A DNA stretch of 7,372 bases from Bacillota bacterium (GTDB lineage: Bacteria; Bacillota; Sulfobacillia; JAJZYS01; JAJZLH01). The notes beneath the pieces were generated by a model. It did not search any database, had not been told where the DNA came from, and saw only the letters and a program-made list of their open reading frames with translations. Position numbers and translations under genes: made by a program. Shown piece after piece: positions 1,155-7,305 of the stretch (position 1 is its first letter; the number at the start of each line of letters is the position of its first letter). The stretch spans positions 1 through 7,372 of the forward strand of contig JAJZLY010000012.1 in assembly GCA_021850485.1 (NCBI GenBank). The letters run 5' to 3'.

Positions 1155-3200
1155 TCAGGCGATTTGGCGTAGCGCCTCGGCCAGATCCCGGCAAGATAAC
1201 ACCTGCCAATGTGGCAACAGGCCACCTGCGGTGACCGCCTCCATTACGGTTTCAGGGAGCACCAAGATGCCCACATCCTCTTTGGCGAGTGCTGTCAGGC
1301 GGAGGGCAAGGTCGTCCGAGAACCACACGCCGCCGCCGATTGCACCGGTGCCGACCGCGGCCAGCGGCCGGTCTGGCACCGTCCCGCGCAGCGCCGACGC
1401 CATCGCCAGCAGCGCTGGCAGCATCATCCCTTCTCCGTCTTCCACCCGCTCACCGATCACCTGCAGGACCAGAGTGCGATCTTGTAGCCAGTCCGGAGGC
1501 AGGCCGATCAGTTTCAGATTGGCACTCAGATAGCTGTAGGCGGTGCGCAGCACCTCTTGCACCTCGGCCGACTGTTGCCCGCGGATCTGCAGCCCGCGGC
1601 CAGCTGGCAAGACGGCCACCTGGATCTCAACCATGCGGCCGACTCGGTCCTCAGCCGAACTGTGGCGGTCTGGGTAGAGGACCTGTCCGGCAGCCAGCCG
1701 CCGCCTCGGCGGCAGTGTCTGCACGGACTGGTTGCGGCGCTCCGGGGGCACCCCCAAAGTGGTGTTCTGGAAGCCCACCGGTCGGGCAGAGAATTCTCCA
1801 GCCGCCATCAGGCAGAGCTGGTCGTGCAGACGCTGGCGGAGTTCCCCGGCCAAGGAGAAGATGGCGTCCAGGGCGGGCTCACCCTTCTCGGTGCGGCCGT
1901 TGGGGAACACCAGTTTGCAAAGCCCGCGGGCCAGTCGCTCCATCGCCGCCTGGTCGCGCTGGGTGGCTCCAGCCAACAGGTCGCGCTGTCCCCTGATTCG
2001 GCGGAAATCCTCGGCAAAGGGAATCTCGCGCAGCGAGAGCAGCACCTCCCCGAAGTAGTCGGAGAGAAAGCCAACGCCGGTGGCGAAGGACTCAGGACCC
2101 AACTTGGGGATCTCCCAGCCCGGGATGAAGCCGTGCAGGCGGTCCACGAAGGCGCTGTCTCTGAGCTCCTCGGGCAGGGGGTCACACAGGGTCCGGTAGC
2201 GGCGCAGCGGGCGGTAGCCGTCGACGTTGATGTTGCCCACGAACACGGTTGAGCAGTCGGAGCGAAACTCATGGCGGCCCCGGCTGTAGGTGCCGCTCTC
2301 CAAGAAGTCCTTGAGCCCGGCCACCATGGCAGGATCGCCGAGTTCCAACCTGGCCACCTCGTCGAACACCACCACCCGCCGCTGGGCGAGGATACCCGGC
2401 CGACCGCTGGACAGGTTGACGAACAAGTTGGCCGGCGTGGCCCGCCCACCCGAGACGACGAAGGCCTTGGCCGACAGGCTGCGCAGCAGGTAGGTCTTGC
2501 CGGTGTTGCGGGGGCCCAGCTCCAGTAAGTTGAGATTTCCCTCGACCAGCGGCGTCAGTCTGGTCAGGAGCAACAGCTTGCGGCGCAGCCGGGTGGCCGC
2601 GTCCGCCAAGTCGGAGCAGATGGCCCCTGGATCGTAGCCCGAAGAGGTGAGCAACAGATCGATCCACTCATCCGTGGTGAAGTAATGTCGGCCCTCGATC
2701 AGCTCGTCGGGGCGGGTCTCAGCCTGGACCGGGCGAAACCCTCCCAGGTACGTCCTGGTCTCGTCACTCCAGCACAGCTCGGCCATCCCCCACAGGCCGC
2801 CGGTCAGGAGCCCCGGAAACCGATCGGCCAGGGTGGGCGACACCTCGATGCCGCCGATGCCGAGTCCCTCCAGGCGTCCCACATGGGCCCCGCTGGTGAG
2901 ATGCACCGAGACCTCCAGATGGTCTAGCACGTTGATCTGACCGTCGCTGACCAGCCGATGACGCCATAGCTCACGCTGGTGCGGGTCGGGATGGATCCGC
3001 CTCAGGTCGTCGGCTACCTGGTTGGCCGCCGCTTCGGTGCCTCCCGCCCGGGCGAACAAGAACTCGGCCACAAAGCGGGGTACTCGCCCCGCCCGCTCCA
3101 GCCTCCGGCTGAGGTCCTTCCTGGCCACCACCGGCTGAGAGAGGGCACCGAACACCTGGCTGACCCTCTGGTCGAGCGAGCGCTCCAGCCGGTCTGCCAT
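1155..3200 (-). CDS. brxL: BrxL-like AAA+ protein with Lon-type C-terminal domain
   Basis: The product is 681 aa, a normal length for BrxL. The N-terminal region (1-210) carries the BrxL-type start, with ARKDLSRRLERAG at 26-38 and VPRFVAEFLFAR at 40-51. The AAA+ domain follows: Walker A GPRNTGKT (229-236, K235), Walker B VVVFDEVA (276-283, D280 E281), sensor-like VGNINVDGY (321-329) and the family block FVDRLHGFIPGWEIPK (351-366), where R354 may be the arginine finger. Residues from about 525 resemble the Lon protease fold, ending in GILVLPETV. Where Lon has DGPSAG this protein has DGEGMM (588-593), and the Lon GGLKEK segment reads DDLALR, so both the Ser and the Lys of the dyad seem absent. 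BrxL is a BREX phage-restriction factor of types 1 and 4, described as an MCM-like DNA-binding ring. The start ATG shares one base with the preceding stop (TGATG), so translation is coupled. It is the last gene of the operon. Assignment to the family is strong; membership of a true BREX system is not shown. Confidence 0.85.
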   Translation of the reverse strand: MADRLERSLDQRVSQVFGALSQPVVARKDLSRRLERAGRVPRFVAEFLFARAGGTEAAANQVADDLRRIHPDPHQRELWRHRLVSDGQINVLDHLEVSVHLTSGAHVGRLEGLGIGGIEVSPTLADRFPGLLTGGLWGMAELCWSDETRTYLGGFRPVQAETRPDELIEGRHYFTTDEWIDLLLTSSGYDPGAICSDLADAATRLRRKLLLLTRLTPLVEGNLNLLELGPRNTGKTYLLRSLSAKAFVVSGGRATPANLFVNLSSGRPGILAQRRVVVFDEVARLELGDPAMVAGLKDFLESGTYSRGRHEFRSDCSTVFVGNINVDGYRPLRRYRTLCDPLPEELRDSAFVDRLHGFIPGWEIPKLGPESFATGVGFLSDYFGEVLLSLREIPFAEDFRRIRGQRDLLAGATQRDQAAMERLARGLCKLVFPNGRTEKGEPALDAIFSLAGELRQRLHDQLCLMAAGEFSARPVGFQNTTLGVPPERRNQSVQTLPPRRRLAAGQVLYPDRHSSAEDRVGRMVEIQVAVLPAGRGLQIRGQQSAEVQEVLRTAYSYLSANLKLIGLPPDWLQDRTLVLQVIGERVEDGEGMMLPALLAMASALRGTVPDRPLAAVGTGAIGGGVWFSDDLALRLTALAKEDVGILVLPETVMEAVTAGGLLPHWQVLSCRDLAEALRQIA

Positions 3201-4459
3201 CAGCTCGGCCAGTCCCGTCGCACCGGGCCGTCCAGCGGCGGGCCCTCGCCGTCGTCCGCATCCTCGTCCGGATCGACTGCCGGTTGCTCAACGGCGCTTA
3301 GCCGTAAGGTAGGGGTCTCGCCATAGCGCATCTGGTGGTCGAGCACCTGGACCGCCGCCCGCACCAACTGGCGCACCTTGGCATCGCGCTCGGGTAGCCC
3401 AGAGCGGACAATCCGGAATAGGTCCGGCCCGCCCTGCGGCGGCGTCCAGCCGTAGGCGGCGGCGTGGGCACAGCTGATGCCGGTCACCACCGTGGCCAGT
3501 TCGTCCTCGCCCAAGGGCGGCAGCACTGCCGCCTTCTCCAACCTGGCAAGCGGGCGCTCGACCGCTTTCGCCGTCTCCAGGTCACCGCGCTGGGCGAGCC
3601 ACTCCCCCAACTTCTCTTGCTCCTTGAGCCGGCCCAGGGTATCGCCTCGGAAGGAAGACGCCAGGGCCCAGGCCGTGTAGGTGTGCGGCAACTGCCGTCC
3701 TTCGGTGAGGCGGTCGAACAGCAAGTAGCTCTTCGCTCTCGCCCACCGTCCGAACTTTCCGATCATCTCCATCTCGTCGATCAAGATGACCCAGCCACCA
3801 AGCCCAGCGTGGTGCGCCATGCGGTCCAACAGCTGGAGGTAGCCGAAGTAGTCATCTGCCGTGAAGCGGTCGAGCCTGGGTGCCGGTTGTCCAAGGCTCT
3901 CCCGGTAGGCGGCGCGCACCTGACTTTGGCTGAGGTGAAAGCCCCTGAGGTCGTCCTCCAGCGTCTCTTGGGCGCCACTGCCCTCGAACAGCGCCGCCAA
4001 GATGCAGGCGAGACGCGGCGTCAGGCTCTGCTCGGCAAAGCGCAAGAGTTTTTGGATTTCCTCTGGTCGCTCCCGGAGAGCGGCCAGTAGGGCGTCCAGC
4101 CCAGGTCGCCTCACCCCTGGGGTGTAGGTACCCGCAACCAGTCTCCGGTAGAGCCTGGCGGGCGGTACCAGGGGTGACTCCCGGCTGACCGACATCAGGC
4201 TGACCAAGAAACCTGCCCGCTCAGCCATCTCCCGGATCGCCTGCAGGGCATGGGTCTTGCCGTCCCCGTAGTTGGCCATCAGCACAATGTGGTTCTTGCG
4301 GTCCTGTCTCCCCTGCTTGAGGGCGTCGAGCTGCTGCTCGACCGCGCCGAGAATCTGGGTACGGCCGGCAGATAAGAGATCCGCAGCCTCCGAGGATGGC
4401 ACGCCAGAGCGCAGGTGTTCGATCACCAACCTAGAGCGGTCAATTGGCAAGGACATCAC
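3200..4459 (-). CDS. brxD: BrxD-like P-loop ATPase (DUF2791/BREX ATP-binding family)
   Basis: The longest reading is 419 aa. The N-terminal block IEHLRSGVPSSEAADLL (13-29) is typical of BrxD/DUF2791 proteins. Walker A is ANYGDGKTH (62-70, K68 T69). The family segment MSVSRESPLVPPARLYRRLV lies at 89-108, and Walker B is WVILIDEME (223-231, D228 E229). Sensor-like WALASSFRG follows at 264-272. The last ~25 residues are acidic and proline-rich (DPDEDADDGEGPPLDG, 396-411) and probably disordered. In BREX type 2 and 6 loci BrxD is an accessory ATPase of unknown mechanism. The longest start is GTG at 4459 and ATG follows at 4456. The exceptionally strong GGAGGTGAT site overlaps both, and a TTG at 4450-4448 is eight bases from GGGAGG, which makes it the best-placed start (416 aa). 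The gene overlaps the upstream ATPase gene by 11-20 bases and ends one base into the BrxL-like ATG. Confidence 0.82.
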   Translation of the reverse strand: MMSLPIDRSRLVIEHLRSGVPSSEAADLLSAGRTQILGAVEQQLDALKQGRQDRKNHIVLMANYGDGKTHALQAIREMAERAGFLVSLMSVSRESPLVPPARLYRRLVAGTYTPGVRRPGLDALLAALRERPEEIQKLLRFAEQSLTPRLACILAALFEGSGAQETLEDDLRGFHLSQSQVRAAYRESLGQPAPRLDRFTADDYFGYLQLLDRMAHHAGLGGWVILIDEMEMIGKFGRWARAKSYLLFDRLTEGRQLPHTYTAWALASSFRGDTLGRLKEQEKLGEWLAQRGDLETAKAVERPLARLEKAAVLPPLGEDELATVVTGISCAHAAAYGWTPPQGGPDLFRIVRSGLPERDAKVRQLVRAAVQVLDHQMRYGETPTLRLSAVEQPAVDPDEDADDGEGPPLDGPVRRDWPS

Positions 4460-5576
4460 CTCCCGACCCCCTCGTCCAGGCCTCCACCAAGCGCTTCACC
4501 GGCGAGACAGCGCCTGACGTCGGGAAGGCCCGAGCTTCCACGTCCTGCACCGCACCTGCACTGGTGCCGTAGGCGCGGGCAAGGTCCAGCCGGTGCTGGG
4601 GCCAGTCCGTCTGCCACAGTTCGTCCAGGTCCTGGACGTCGTTGAAGAGGTTCGGGCGACCGGTTTGCACCTCGTTTTCCACCCGCATCGCTAGTGCCGC
4701 GTAGCTGCGCAGTCCGGCTCGCTCATCCAAGAAGACCTCCGGTCGCCCGGCGTAGACCGCCATCAGGCCGGGCATCCTGGCCCCATCGTCGATCAGTTCG
4801 CGAATCCCCTCGTAGGCATCCTCCCGGCGCAGCCTGGTGTACTTCACCCCCTCACCGGTGCTAATCAGGGCGTCCAGATCATCCACGGTCAGGACCAGCC
4901 CGGCTCCGCCACACAGCTGGATGGCAAATAGCAAAGATCTCAGCACATCTCGCACCCTAAAGCGGTCCAGTGCCATGCCAATGCCAGCCCGCCGCCGGGC
5001 GCTGGCCAAGACCCGCTCCCCTTGCAGCCAGGCCAGTGCGGTCTTGGTCGCCTCTTCGGAGGCGGCAGAGGGCTGCACGTGCGGCTCGGCGATGCGGCGC
5101 AGCGCGCTCGCCACCGGCGGCGCGATGTTGCGTTCAGCGTAGAGGAAGTCAAAGGCCCGCATCAGATCGCTCTGGGCAGCGGCAACTGGCCGGCCCTGTT
5201 CCTGGAAGGTGCGCTCCAAAGAGGCGTCCGGACGGTCCAGATCAAGCGTCACGCCCAGTCGATCCGACGCACCTCGAGCCAGGATCTTGCCCAGGTGTTG
5301 GGCCGGAATCTGCGGTACGATGTGGCGATACACCTCGTCCATGCGGCCGATCTGGACGTCTCTGGCGGAGATGGCTGCAACCAGATAGCCGCTGCCTCTC
5401 GCCGCCCGCCGCAACTGGCCAAGCAGGGCGGTCTTACCGCTTCCCTCCCGACCCTTCAGCCACTTGACAGCCGACCCGCCAGCAGGCAGGTAGTCTTGCA
5501 GGTAGTTCTCCTGCCAGAAGGCCAAGAGGCCGCCTGGGTCGACGAAGGGCCGACTCGGCCCCAGTTCAGGCACCAT
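4440..5576 (-). CDS. second P-loop ATPase, divergent relative of the DUF2791/BREX ATP-binding family
   Basis: The product is 378 aa from the ATG at 5576-5574. Walker A is GREGSGKTA (42-50, K48 T49). The Walker B-like strand is GLVLTVDDLDAL (226-237), with Asp-Asp (232-233) where BrxD-type proteins have Asp-Glu. Beyond it, LMAVYAGRPEVFLDE (271-285) followed by LRSYAALAMRVE resembles the sensor/arginine region of DUF2791 and ORC/Cdc6-like ATPases. The end, SPVKRLVEAW (358-367), also has the family flavour. No known activity can be assigned. The frame is open upstream to 5759, but that extension is Ser/Trp/Cys-rich shadow of the preceding gene. The ATG has AGGA eight bases ahead (GAGGA, minus 5589-5585) and overlaps the upstream stop by 11 bases, so it is the sensible start. 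It probably works as a partner of the adjacent BrxD-like ATPase. The ATPase call is firm; the family placement is moderate. Confidence 0.72.
   Translation of the reverse strand: MVPELGPSRPFVDPGGLLAFWQENYLQDYLPAGGSAVKWLKGREGSGKTALLGQLRRAARGSGYLVAAISARDVQIGRMDEVYRHIVPQIPAQHLGKILARGASDRLGVTLDLDRPDASLERTFQEQGRPVAAAQSDLMRAFDFLYAERNIAPPVASALRRIAEPHVQPSAASEEATKTALAWLQGERVLASARRRAGIGMALDRFRVRDVLRSLLFAIQLCGGAGLVLTVDDLDALISTGEGVKYTRLRREDAYEGIRELIDDGARMPGLMAVYAGRPEVFLDERAGLRSYAALAMRVENEVQTGRPNLFNDVQDLDELWQTDWPQHRLDLARAYGTSAGAVQDVEARAFPTSGAVSPVKRLVEAWTRGSGGDVLAN
4459..4464 (-). promoter_or_regulatory. strong Shine-Dalgarno that questions the BrxD-like start
   Basis: The minus strand reads GGGAGGTGATG. 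GGAGGTGAT matches the 16S rRNA 3' end over nine bases. It leaves only two bases before the ATG (4456-4454) and none before the GTG (4459-4457), but eight bases before the in-frame TTG at 4450-4448. The spacing favours TTG initiation inside the end of the preceding gene. Confidence 0.6.
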
Positions 5577-6336
5577 CTTCCAGTTCCTCGACCTCCAGCA
5601 TGCTGAACACCTCCACACCACCGTGGGAGTTTGGGATCTCCAGCGTGCGTCGCTTGCTGTTGACGAAGCTGAGCCTGTGCCCCTCGTACACCAAGTCTGA
5701 GTCGCGGCGCAGGCGGTGGATGTCCCAGATGAACTCCTGGCGACTGTAACCCGCAGCACCGGTGCGCAGGCTGAGCAGGTCGTAGATGTCCAGGAGGAAA
5801 ACGCTGGTGCCCTGGCCTTTGCCGGACTTGAGCAGTAAGCGGTGTGCTTCGGTCAGCGCCTTCAAGAAGCGGGTTGCGTTGAAACTGGAGCGATTCAGCC
5901 GCTTGACCTGAGATTGGATCTCGGCCACCACGGCGTCTGGTCTAAGGGCGTTGCGCTTCTGCCTGCGGCCGATGGTCACCTGCTCCTGGGCGAGGTCTAT
6001 CCGAAAGGACAGTGGAAAGGTCTCGAAGCTTGGAAACTCTCCGGAAAGGGAGAGGTCGGCCCTGGCCGCAGCGTCGCGCAGGGCTGACTCATAGGCGGTG
6101 ACGGTGGTCTCGTCCGCGGCCAGCGACCATCCAGACAGGCTCGCCTGTGCCTGTCTCGTTCCCTCAGTGAGCTCGTCAAGCGTCTTTGCCAACTCAGGGA
6201 GCCGCTGCCTGAGCGCTTTCAGATCCCAGTGGGACTCGGCTGTCACGACTGCTCCTGCCATCTTGCGCAGACGCTTCAGGTCTGTCGTGAGGCTGCGCAG
6301 TTGGTCCAGGGCCTCGCTCGTCAGAAAGTCGCTCAC
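5566..6336 (-). CDS. uncharacterised 256-aa protein with likely C-terminal winged helix, first gene of the BREX-like operon
   Basis: I do not recognise this family. Residues 5-70 are mostly helical with spaced leucines (LRSLTTDLKRLRK, 13-25; LRQRLPELAKTLDELTEG, 42-59) and could form a short coiled coil. Residues 100-130 look beta-rich (FETFPLSFRIDLAQEQVTIG). Residues 135-170 are helical (VVAEIQSQVKRLNRSSFNATRFLKAL). The C-terminal part (178-235) reads as a winged helix: a helix VFLLDIYDLL, a candidate recognition helix SRQEFIWDIHRLRRDS (198-213), then the wing YEGHRLSFVNSKRRTLEIP. That would suit DNA binding or docking to the ATPases. The start is GTG at 6336-6334, seven bases after a perfect AAGGAGG. 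An ATG seen slightly upstream is in another frame. It is the first gene of the operon and overlaps the next gene by 11 bases. There is no signal peptide or membrane segment. Confidence 0.75.
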   Translation of the reverse strand: MSDFLTSEALDQLRSLTTDLKRLRKMAGAVVTAESHWDLKALRQRLPELAKTLDELTEGTRQAQASLSGWSLAADETTVTAYESALRDAAARADLSLSGEFPSFETFPLSFRIDLAQEQVTIGRRQKRNALRPDAVVAEIQSQVKRLNRSSFNATRFLKALTEAHRLLLKSGKGQGTSVFLLDIYDLLSLRTGAAGYSRQEFIWDIHRLRRDSDLVYEGHRLSFVNSKRRTLEIPNSHGGVEVFSMLEVEELEDGA

Positions 6337-6630
6337 TCATCATCCTCCTTGATTCATCTCGCCCAAACTAAGATCGCTGACACCCGCCGGCCGCGATTAG
6401 GTTAGGCGGTGGCCGTATCGCTTCCTTCCGTGACCAGCTGAAACCCGAGGAGGAGGCGGGTGACCAGGTCTGACCGCATGCCACTGGGCCGGACCTTGGG
6501 CGGTACAGAAAGGGGGAAAGTCCATCTGCATCCCGGCGCTGTGGCTGCTCTCACCCGTATCGCTGGAAGACGCTGATGACAGGGCGTCGGTCCCGGTCGT
6601 TATTTACTCCGAGATCGATCCGGTCATAGG
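6337..6630. other. divergent intergenic region upstream of the BREX-like operon
   Basis: This 294-bp region separates the minus-strand operon from the plus-strand DUF433/DUF5615 remnant, so any promoters for both should be here. I see no clear -35/-10 pair. On the minus strand the only AT-richer spots are around CTAACCTAAT and GATCTTAGTTT (about 6368-6403). A small plus-strand frame (6478-6576, 32 codons) and a frame ending with EEEAGDQV before 6473 have no recognisable identity. The heptamer TGACCAG occurs twice, 30 bp apart (6431 and 6461). Nothing else is supported. Confidence 0.45.
6344..6350 (-). promoter_or_regulatory. ribosome binding site of the first operon gene
   Basis: The minus strand reads AAGGAGG, a perfect consensus, followed by seven bases and the GTG at 6336-6334. 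It fixes the GTG start rather than the out-of-frame ATGs at 6343 and 6340. Confidence 0.75.
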
Positions 6631-6957: not shown

Positions 6958-7305
6958 TCACTTGGACCCACGAGGTCGGTCTCGCCCCGGGTCGGTTATC
7001 TCCCGCTTCCGCAGGTCCGGGTTCACGGAATTGCGGATAAGGTCGAACGCAGCTTGACCATCCAGCGTACAAGCTACGAATTCGCTAAAGCTCTGAAGGC
7101 TCTGTAGGTGAAGTTCGTTGACTGCAATGTGACGTAAGAGGCTCTCGTCGTCAATGGACCGCTGACCGTGTGAGAAATATACGGTACACAGTTTCCGGGT
7201 GGGATGATCTGGATCGAAGACGGCATAATGCTCGTGCTTAGTTCCTCTTGTAGGTTGGGCACTGAGTTTCTCGTGGAGTGCCCGCTTGATGTCCCGTATC
7301 AGCAT
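6958..7305 (-). CDS. 115-aa hypothetical protein, possibly HicA-like
   Basis: This is a small basic protein. The central part, RGTKHEHYAVF (20-30), CTVYFSHGQ (40-48) and SLLRHIAVNEL (55-65), loosely follows the layout of HicA mRNA interferases: a glycine followed by His-rich strand, then a short strand with His-Gly, then a helix beginning near an Arg. The resemblance is weak and I do not assign the function. H24, H26 and H46 are the candidate catalytic positions. The start ATG (7305-7303) overlaps the stop of an upstream partial gene (ATGCTGA), and GAGGA directly touches the ATG, so translation is probably coupled. The last ~15 residues (EITDPGRDRPRGSK) are low-complexity and may be foreign sequence read through at the junction with the broken toxin gene. 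Confidence 0.6.
   Translation of the reverse strand: MLIRDIKRALHEKLSAQPTRGTKHEHYAVFDPDHPTRKLCTVYFSHGQRSIDDESLLRHIAVNELHLQSLQSFSEFVACTLDGQAAFDLIRNSVNPDLRKREITDPGRDRPRGSK

Follow-up and report, generated by a model that had tools for sequence, protein, structure and literature searches.

A recurrent four-gene operon couples two BrxC/D-family ATPases to BrxL and may act as a BREX-related defence

Introduction

BREX type 1 consists of BrxA, BrxB, BrxC, PglX, PglZ and BrxL. Previous work placed BrxC, BrxB, BrxF and BrxD in the ORC clade and showed that BrxL resembles MCM, its ATPase being required for restriction (PMC10164562). There is still dispute over how BREX halts phage; one proposal is that it imitates ORC-Cdc6-MCM loading and disturbs phage replication or origins, and in the study that made it a translocase or helicase activity of BrxL was not demonstrated (PMC10164562). 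Outside the operon described here, BrxL is known only from BREX; it is not an active protease, and in BREX types 5 and 6 its place is often taken by helicases, with BrxD as the proposed loader of BrxHI (PMC12839542). Self recognition in BREX normally requires PglX (PMC11842806). Other systems that bear on the comparison are Shango, with SngA (TerB), SngB (an ATPase) and SngC (a helicase), and Pbe, which is defined by PbeC, an ABC ATPase, and the DndE-like PbeD (PMC10853773).

Here we analyse an operon in which the proposed core of BREX stands by itself: BrxL and an ORC-like pair, with neither methyltransferase nor PglZ. We read it as an ORC/Cdc6-like loader joined to an MCM-like motor, which may form a defence that blocks the replication of incoming DNA without a mark of its own, a reading that we hold with about even confidence. 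In agreement with an earlier note on this DNA, which took the system to be undescribed or poorly described, we found no account of the four-gene unit in the open-licence PMC literature, a body that leaves out most subscription papers; searches there for standalone BrxL and for DUF2791 returned nothing relevant.

A four-gene operon with a full-length BrxL

The window, meaning the whole stretch of 7372 bases that was analysed, makes up all of contig C11; the genome to which it belongs comprises 1.61 Mb in 33 contigs and is 97.2% complete. The GC content of the window, 0.648, agrees with the 0.643 of a segment taken from C2, a large contig of that genome, and its tetranucleotide use correlates with that of the C2 segment at r 0.95. 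Since the window is a whole contig, the absence of a gene from it alone says little, and the genomic context was supplied by relatives. The four overlapping minus-strand frames described earlier are present in the list of open reading frames, in the order G4, G3, G2 and BrxL, the brxL start codon sharing 1 nt with the stop codon of G2. The features of the window are as follows.

2-861: HEPN and MNT nucleotidyltransferase pair, left flank (family-library match)
1155-3200, minus strand: BrxL, with an N-terminal domain, an MCM-like AAA+ domain and a Lon-like C-terminal domain (Pfam, NCBIfam and PADLOC)
3200-4459, minus strand: G2, BrxC/D-family AAA+ ATPase, 419 aa (PF10923, 74.7 bits)
4440-5576, minus strand: G3, AAA+ ATPase with a modelled ORC/Cdc6 fold, about 378 aa from ATG 5576 (PF10923, 99.2 bits)
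5566-6336, minus strand: G4, 256-aa product of the operon's first gene, GTG start (open reading frame and homologues)
6344-6350, minus strand: Shine-Dalgarno-like AAGGAGG, 7 nt before the G4 GTG start (read directly)
6958-7305: 115-aa open reading frame on the right flank, matching no family in four libraries

A scan for promoters and terminators gave matches at chance level only.

The last gene, previously called BrxL-like and AAA+/Lon-type, proved to encode a full-length BrxL, scoring 372.7 bits against TIGR02688 (cut-off 329.3) and, in Pfam, 304 bits against BrxL_ATPase and 70 bits against BrxL_N; the solved BrxL relative 8EMC matches it with E 1.7e-73. In the alignment it lacks the EGPSAG catalytic serine motif of Lon, as do most cassette BrxLs, in line with published work in which BrxL is not regarded as an active protease (PMC12839542). 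The BrxLs of L043, L045, L047 and L062 keep this serine motif, and their lysine partner looks absent.

A PF13337 search of 154 genomes of the window's class returned 37 substantial BrxL genes, 20 within 10 kb of G2, 8 within 10 kb of PglZ and none near both; the remainder are five short type-4-like, two type-1-like and two contig-edge proteins, the last scoring like cassette BrxL. Scores separate the cassette BrxLs (296-338 bits) from the PglZ-linked ones (433-485 bits). In a tree of 46 BrxLs, a single branch (99/97) separates the 25 cassette BrxLs from both the type 1 proteins, plasmid BREX loci included, and the short type-4-like ones. Directly after BrxL, the window's closest relatives carry a RecQ-like helicase (L037:12217-13643, L158:11740-13695 and L041:10211-12508), the one in L041 with HRDC and RecQ zinc-binding domains.

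Two unequal ATPases and a putative adaptor

The description of the ATPases as BrxD-like holds at the level of the family, with G2 and G3 both above the PF10923 (BrxC_BrxD) gathering cut-off of 22.2 bits, but they are not BrxD orthologues, as NF033438 gives 55.6 bits for G2 and 103.8 bits for G3 against a cut-off of 350. The two form a conserved pair of their own in an operon with G4, mostly without BrxL and beside other helicases. The listed G3 frame reaches 5759, but residues 1-67 have a pLDDT below 50, and G3 of close relatives begins about 8 nt inside G4, suggesting that ATG 5576 is probably the true start.

The structural model of G3 (pLDDT 83, core over 90) has an ORC/Cdc6 fold, its best matches being Aeropyrum ORC2 (1w5t; Z 14.4 over 230 residues, rmsd 3.6), Cdc6 (Z 13.1) and TnsC (Z 12), with eukaryotic ORC5 and MuB also among the top folds. 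Because TnsC matches this fold nearly as well as ORC does, a loader is one of several readings of the model. The presence of TnsC and MuB among the matches would suit a triplet that selects DNA for an effector, in the manner of TnsC/MuB-like targeting ATPases, and loads no ring; we find this barely credible, as there is no transposase and the identified partners are motors, not recombinases.

The active sites of the two ATPases differ. G2 has intact Walker A (GDGKTH) and Walker B (IDE) motifs, whose lysine and Asp-Glu pair are kept in 86 of 86 relatives. In G3 Walker A is intact, whereas the Walker-B glutamate is absent (motif DDLD) and occurs in only 1 of the 86 relatives. This pattern of motif conservation suggests that G2 is likely the hydrolysing subunit and G3 its ATP-binding partner.

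No entry in the family libraries matches G4 above its own cut-off. Its AlphaFold2 model (pLDDT 94.1) consists of a long N-terminal helical hairpin, a small central β-sheet and a C-terminal part. The C-terminal half runs helix-strand-helix-helix-strand-strand, an order typical of winged helices; the model thus fits the earlier winged-helix reading of this part, though no database match confirms it. Fold searches with Foldseek and VIA-align gave no full-length match and mostly aligned the N-terminal hairpin (residues 1-74); as they tested mainly the hairpin and barely the rest, we do not claim a new fold. A G4 profile run against PDB sequences gave matches that were for the most part coiled coils or designed helical proteins, and these were set aside. 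G4 is likely a DNA- or target-binding adaptor.

The operon shares with BREX type 1 a full-length BrxL of type-1 domain layout and ATPases of the ORC-clade BrxC/D family; it differs in having no linked PglZ or Eco57I-type PglX, two small ATPases where type 1 has the large BrxC, a BrxL from a separate clade, and the new component G4. Like the BrxD-BrxHI pair of BREX type 2, a proposed loader and helicase (PMC12839542), it links an ORC-like ATPase to a DNA motor, but its two ATPases are diverged and fall below the BrxD cut-off, its motor is BrxL, and PglW, PglX and PglZ are missing. Shango also combines a BrxD-related ATPase with a motor; family searches of the window, however, found neither a TerB-domain gene nor an SF2 helicase, and the SngB matches are weak (29.5 bits for G2, 43 bits for G3). 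Archaeal and eukaryotic ORC-Cdc6 and MCM resemble the cassette in the modelled fold of G3 and in the published MCM similarity of BrxL (PMC10164562), whereas the cassette is a bacterial operon and not a set of replication genes, and neither an origin nor primase genes were seen in linkage with it.

Two further assignments were considered and rejected. An SF2 helicase from a sister clade matches PbeA models of PbeABCD, one of the CxC ABC-ATPase systems, but the window has no ABC ATPase or DndE relative. ARMADA and DISARM are defined by the YprA helicase and PglX.

A conserved unit away from PglZ and PglX

A sample of 398 genomes from the phylum yielded G4 homologues in 14, counting the window's genome. 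At each of these loci G4 is followed by G3-family and G2-family genes in the same order and on the same strand, a few of the loci having parts that run off the contig or that required a finer search for reading frames. A profile search of genome contigs with the G2 alignment gave 479 relatives; among the best 80 of these, which were inspected, almost all lie in a G4-G3-G2 triplet where the contig permits, and about 20 have BrxL directly after G2, as do further genomes of the class. One genome, G160, has this order on two contigs with overlapping, nearly identical ends. The idea that the four genes make up a complete unit is thus borne out by about 20 non-identical loci with the same order and overlapping genes, and the homologues do occur together elsewhere in the class. 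Adjacent genes typically overlap by 4-11 nt, and in nearly all loci no more than 26 nt lie between the BrxL start and the G2 stop.

PglZ and an Eco57I-type PglX, two of the BREX hallmark genes that the earlier note found missing from the window, are missing from relatives on longer contigs as well. PglZ (PF08665) is absent from the window's genome, and none of the 20 cassette BrxLs lies within 10 kb of PglZ, compared with 8 of the 17 non-cassette BrxLs. In the 20 cassette genomes, PF07669 (Eco57I-type methyltransferase) has a match on no cassette contig; as controls, the same search found the methyltransferase beside BrxL in two BREX loci (G518:C16 and G437:C10). With one family searched and several contigs short, this absence is strong for PglX and weaker for methyltransferases generally. 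Among 138 neighbour proteins of BrxL cassettes there is no recurrent methyltransferase, PglZ or constant fifth gene, and BrxA and BrxB are not among the 25 commonest Pfam and PADLOC families, a tally in which single occurrences would not show. As PglZ and PglX are missing while parts are shared with BREX, we file the cassette as a BREX-related variant and not as a BREX type.

These data also bear on whether the cassette could be the interference arm of a BREX-like defence that takes its self mark from an unlinked host methyltransferase. The window's genome does contain one Eco57I-family methyltransferase, on another contig (G000:C25), and the normal need of BREX for PglX in self recognition (PMC11842806) would favour such an arrangement. 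However, 10 of the 20 cassette-bearing genomes have no Eco57I-family match anywhere, so that no member of this family is a constant partner, and we regard an unlinked mark as quite unlikely.

The genes of the unit are inherited together. Of 154 genomes, 35 have BrxL, 39 have G2 and 23 have both (p 5e-9). Pairwise distances of BrxL and of G3+G2 correlate at r = 0.981 over 22 loci (0 of 5000 permutations), a value that includes shared host descent; the matching groupings in the two trees indicate that the genes travelled together despite that share. The distribution is patchy, the cassette being missing from both congeneric genomes and present twice in one MAG. No viral copy of G2 was confirmed in IMG/VR, a plasmid collection contained no copy of G4 or of a sister G2, and the phages searched for BrxL gave only 6 distant matches, so mobility is shown by patchiness only.

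An ORC/Cdc6 fold in G3 next to an MCM-like BrxL could also describe the replication module of an integrated mobile element, an initiator pair with a replicative helicase like the ORC/MCM genes of archaeal plasmids. We consider this very improbable: integrase, relaxase and primase genes do not recur next to the cassette, no tRNA site lies near it, the plasmid and viral searches found no copies, and the partners of the triplet include Cas3.

At the flanks, an earlier reading as toxin-antitoxin genes is right for the left side, where the HEPN and MNT nucleotidyltransferase pair lies, and not for the right, where the gene matches no toxin-antitoxin family. A second HEPN-MNT pair on contig C2 (L020:8476-9861) has 85% identity over 952 bp to the left flank of the window, and beside it is a brxL remnant of 72-85 bp (24 residues, 21 identical). 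This suggests that C2 probably carries a decayed second site, at which HEPN-MNT and the cassette once stood together and from which the cassette has since been lost. In the other loci inspected, HEPN-MNT is no constant neighbour of the cassette.

Interchangeable motors and a proposed mechanism

In a tree of G3+G2, all 23 BrxL-linked triplets fall in one clade of 36 rows (SH-aLRT 99), which also holds about ten triplets without an adjacent BrxL, at least one of them at a contig end. Sister clades have other nucleic-acid motors in place of BrxL. A ResIII-type SF2 helicase stands beside the triplet in 30 members of a 33-row clade, the others including truncated contigs, and an SF1 AAA_11/12 helicase follows G2 in all six members of a 6-row clade. 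A further subclade lies inside type I CRISPR-cas operons (L024:57-15242, L027:4709-15999, L028:7742-19122 and L031:9555-13662), with Cas7-family genes and Cas6, and with an array of 44 repeats in L024. Cas3 adjoins G4 in L027 and is separated from it by one small reading frame in L024, and Cas6 adjoins the triplet in L031. In this CRISPR-linked group, taken with L100, the Walker-A lysine of G3 is lost in 5 of 5 members, compared with its retention in 81 of 81 elsewhere.

Hybrid loci (L048:1794-10224, L044 and L061) carry a true Shango SngB ATPase (PADLOC E 5e-118 in L048) and a DEAD helicase upstream of G4-G3-G2.

That helicases stand in for BrxL in sister operons speaks for BrxL working as a DNA motor. 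A constant ORC-like pair beside a variable motor fits both published ideas, that BREX imitates ORC-Cdc6-MCM loading (PMC10164562) and that BrxD loads BrxHI (PMC12839542).

A rival reading is a genome-maintenance module, in which the ORC-like pair and a replaceable helicase or BrxL would repair or restart host replication or remodel DNA, with no anti-invader role. The neighbours of BrxL cassettes are mostly housekeeping families with few defence genes among them, the raw tally including one Csd1, two Csx1, two TnpB-like and two PsyrT proteins; the partners are SF1 and SF2 helicases of repair type; and these neighbourhoods, together with the absence of copies from the plasmid and virus searches, weaken the anti-invader reading. 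On the other side, the cassette is patchy, missing in congeners and duplicated in one MAG, the triplets of one sister clade lie within type I CRISPR-cas operons, in another the gene order links the triplet to a Shango SngB gene, and BREX is the only other setting in which BrxL is known (PMC12839542). We therefore treat a maintenance role as unlikely, though deserving real weight.

The known role of BrxL, the patchiness of the cassette and the association of sister triplets with CRISPR and Shango genes support an anti-invader function; such a defence may restrict without methylation. In the mechanism that we propose for this defence, G4 would recognise foreign DNA, as it enters or replicates, by a structure or a sequence on it, and the hydrolysing G2 and the ATP-binding G3, which has no catalytic glutamate, would form a mixed AAA+ assembly on the chosen DNA. 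This assembly would load BrxL rings onto the DNA, where BrxL would remain bound or translocate and so block replication, with no cutting and no dedicated mark on host DNA. Because the core stands here without methyltransferase and PglZ, the idea of ORC-MCM imitation becomes testable with four genes.

More tentatively, G4-G3-G2 might be a general, undescribed ORC-like loading module into which immunity plugs BrxL, SF2 or SF1 helicases or Cas3; its BrxL version would then be the first BREX-family system without modification or PglZ.

In another triplet clade, G4 is preceded not by a helicase but by a helix-turn-helix (HTH_3) protein of 346-418 aa (L022:10461-11717, L023:8985-10058 and L026:10258-11298).
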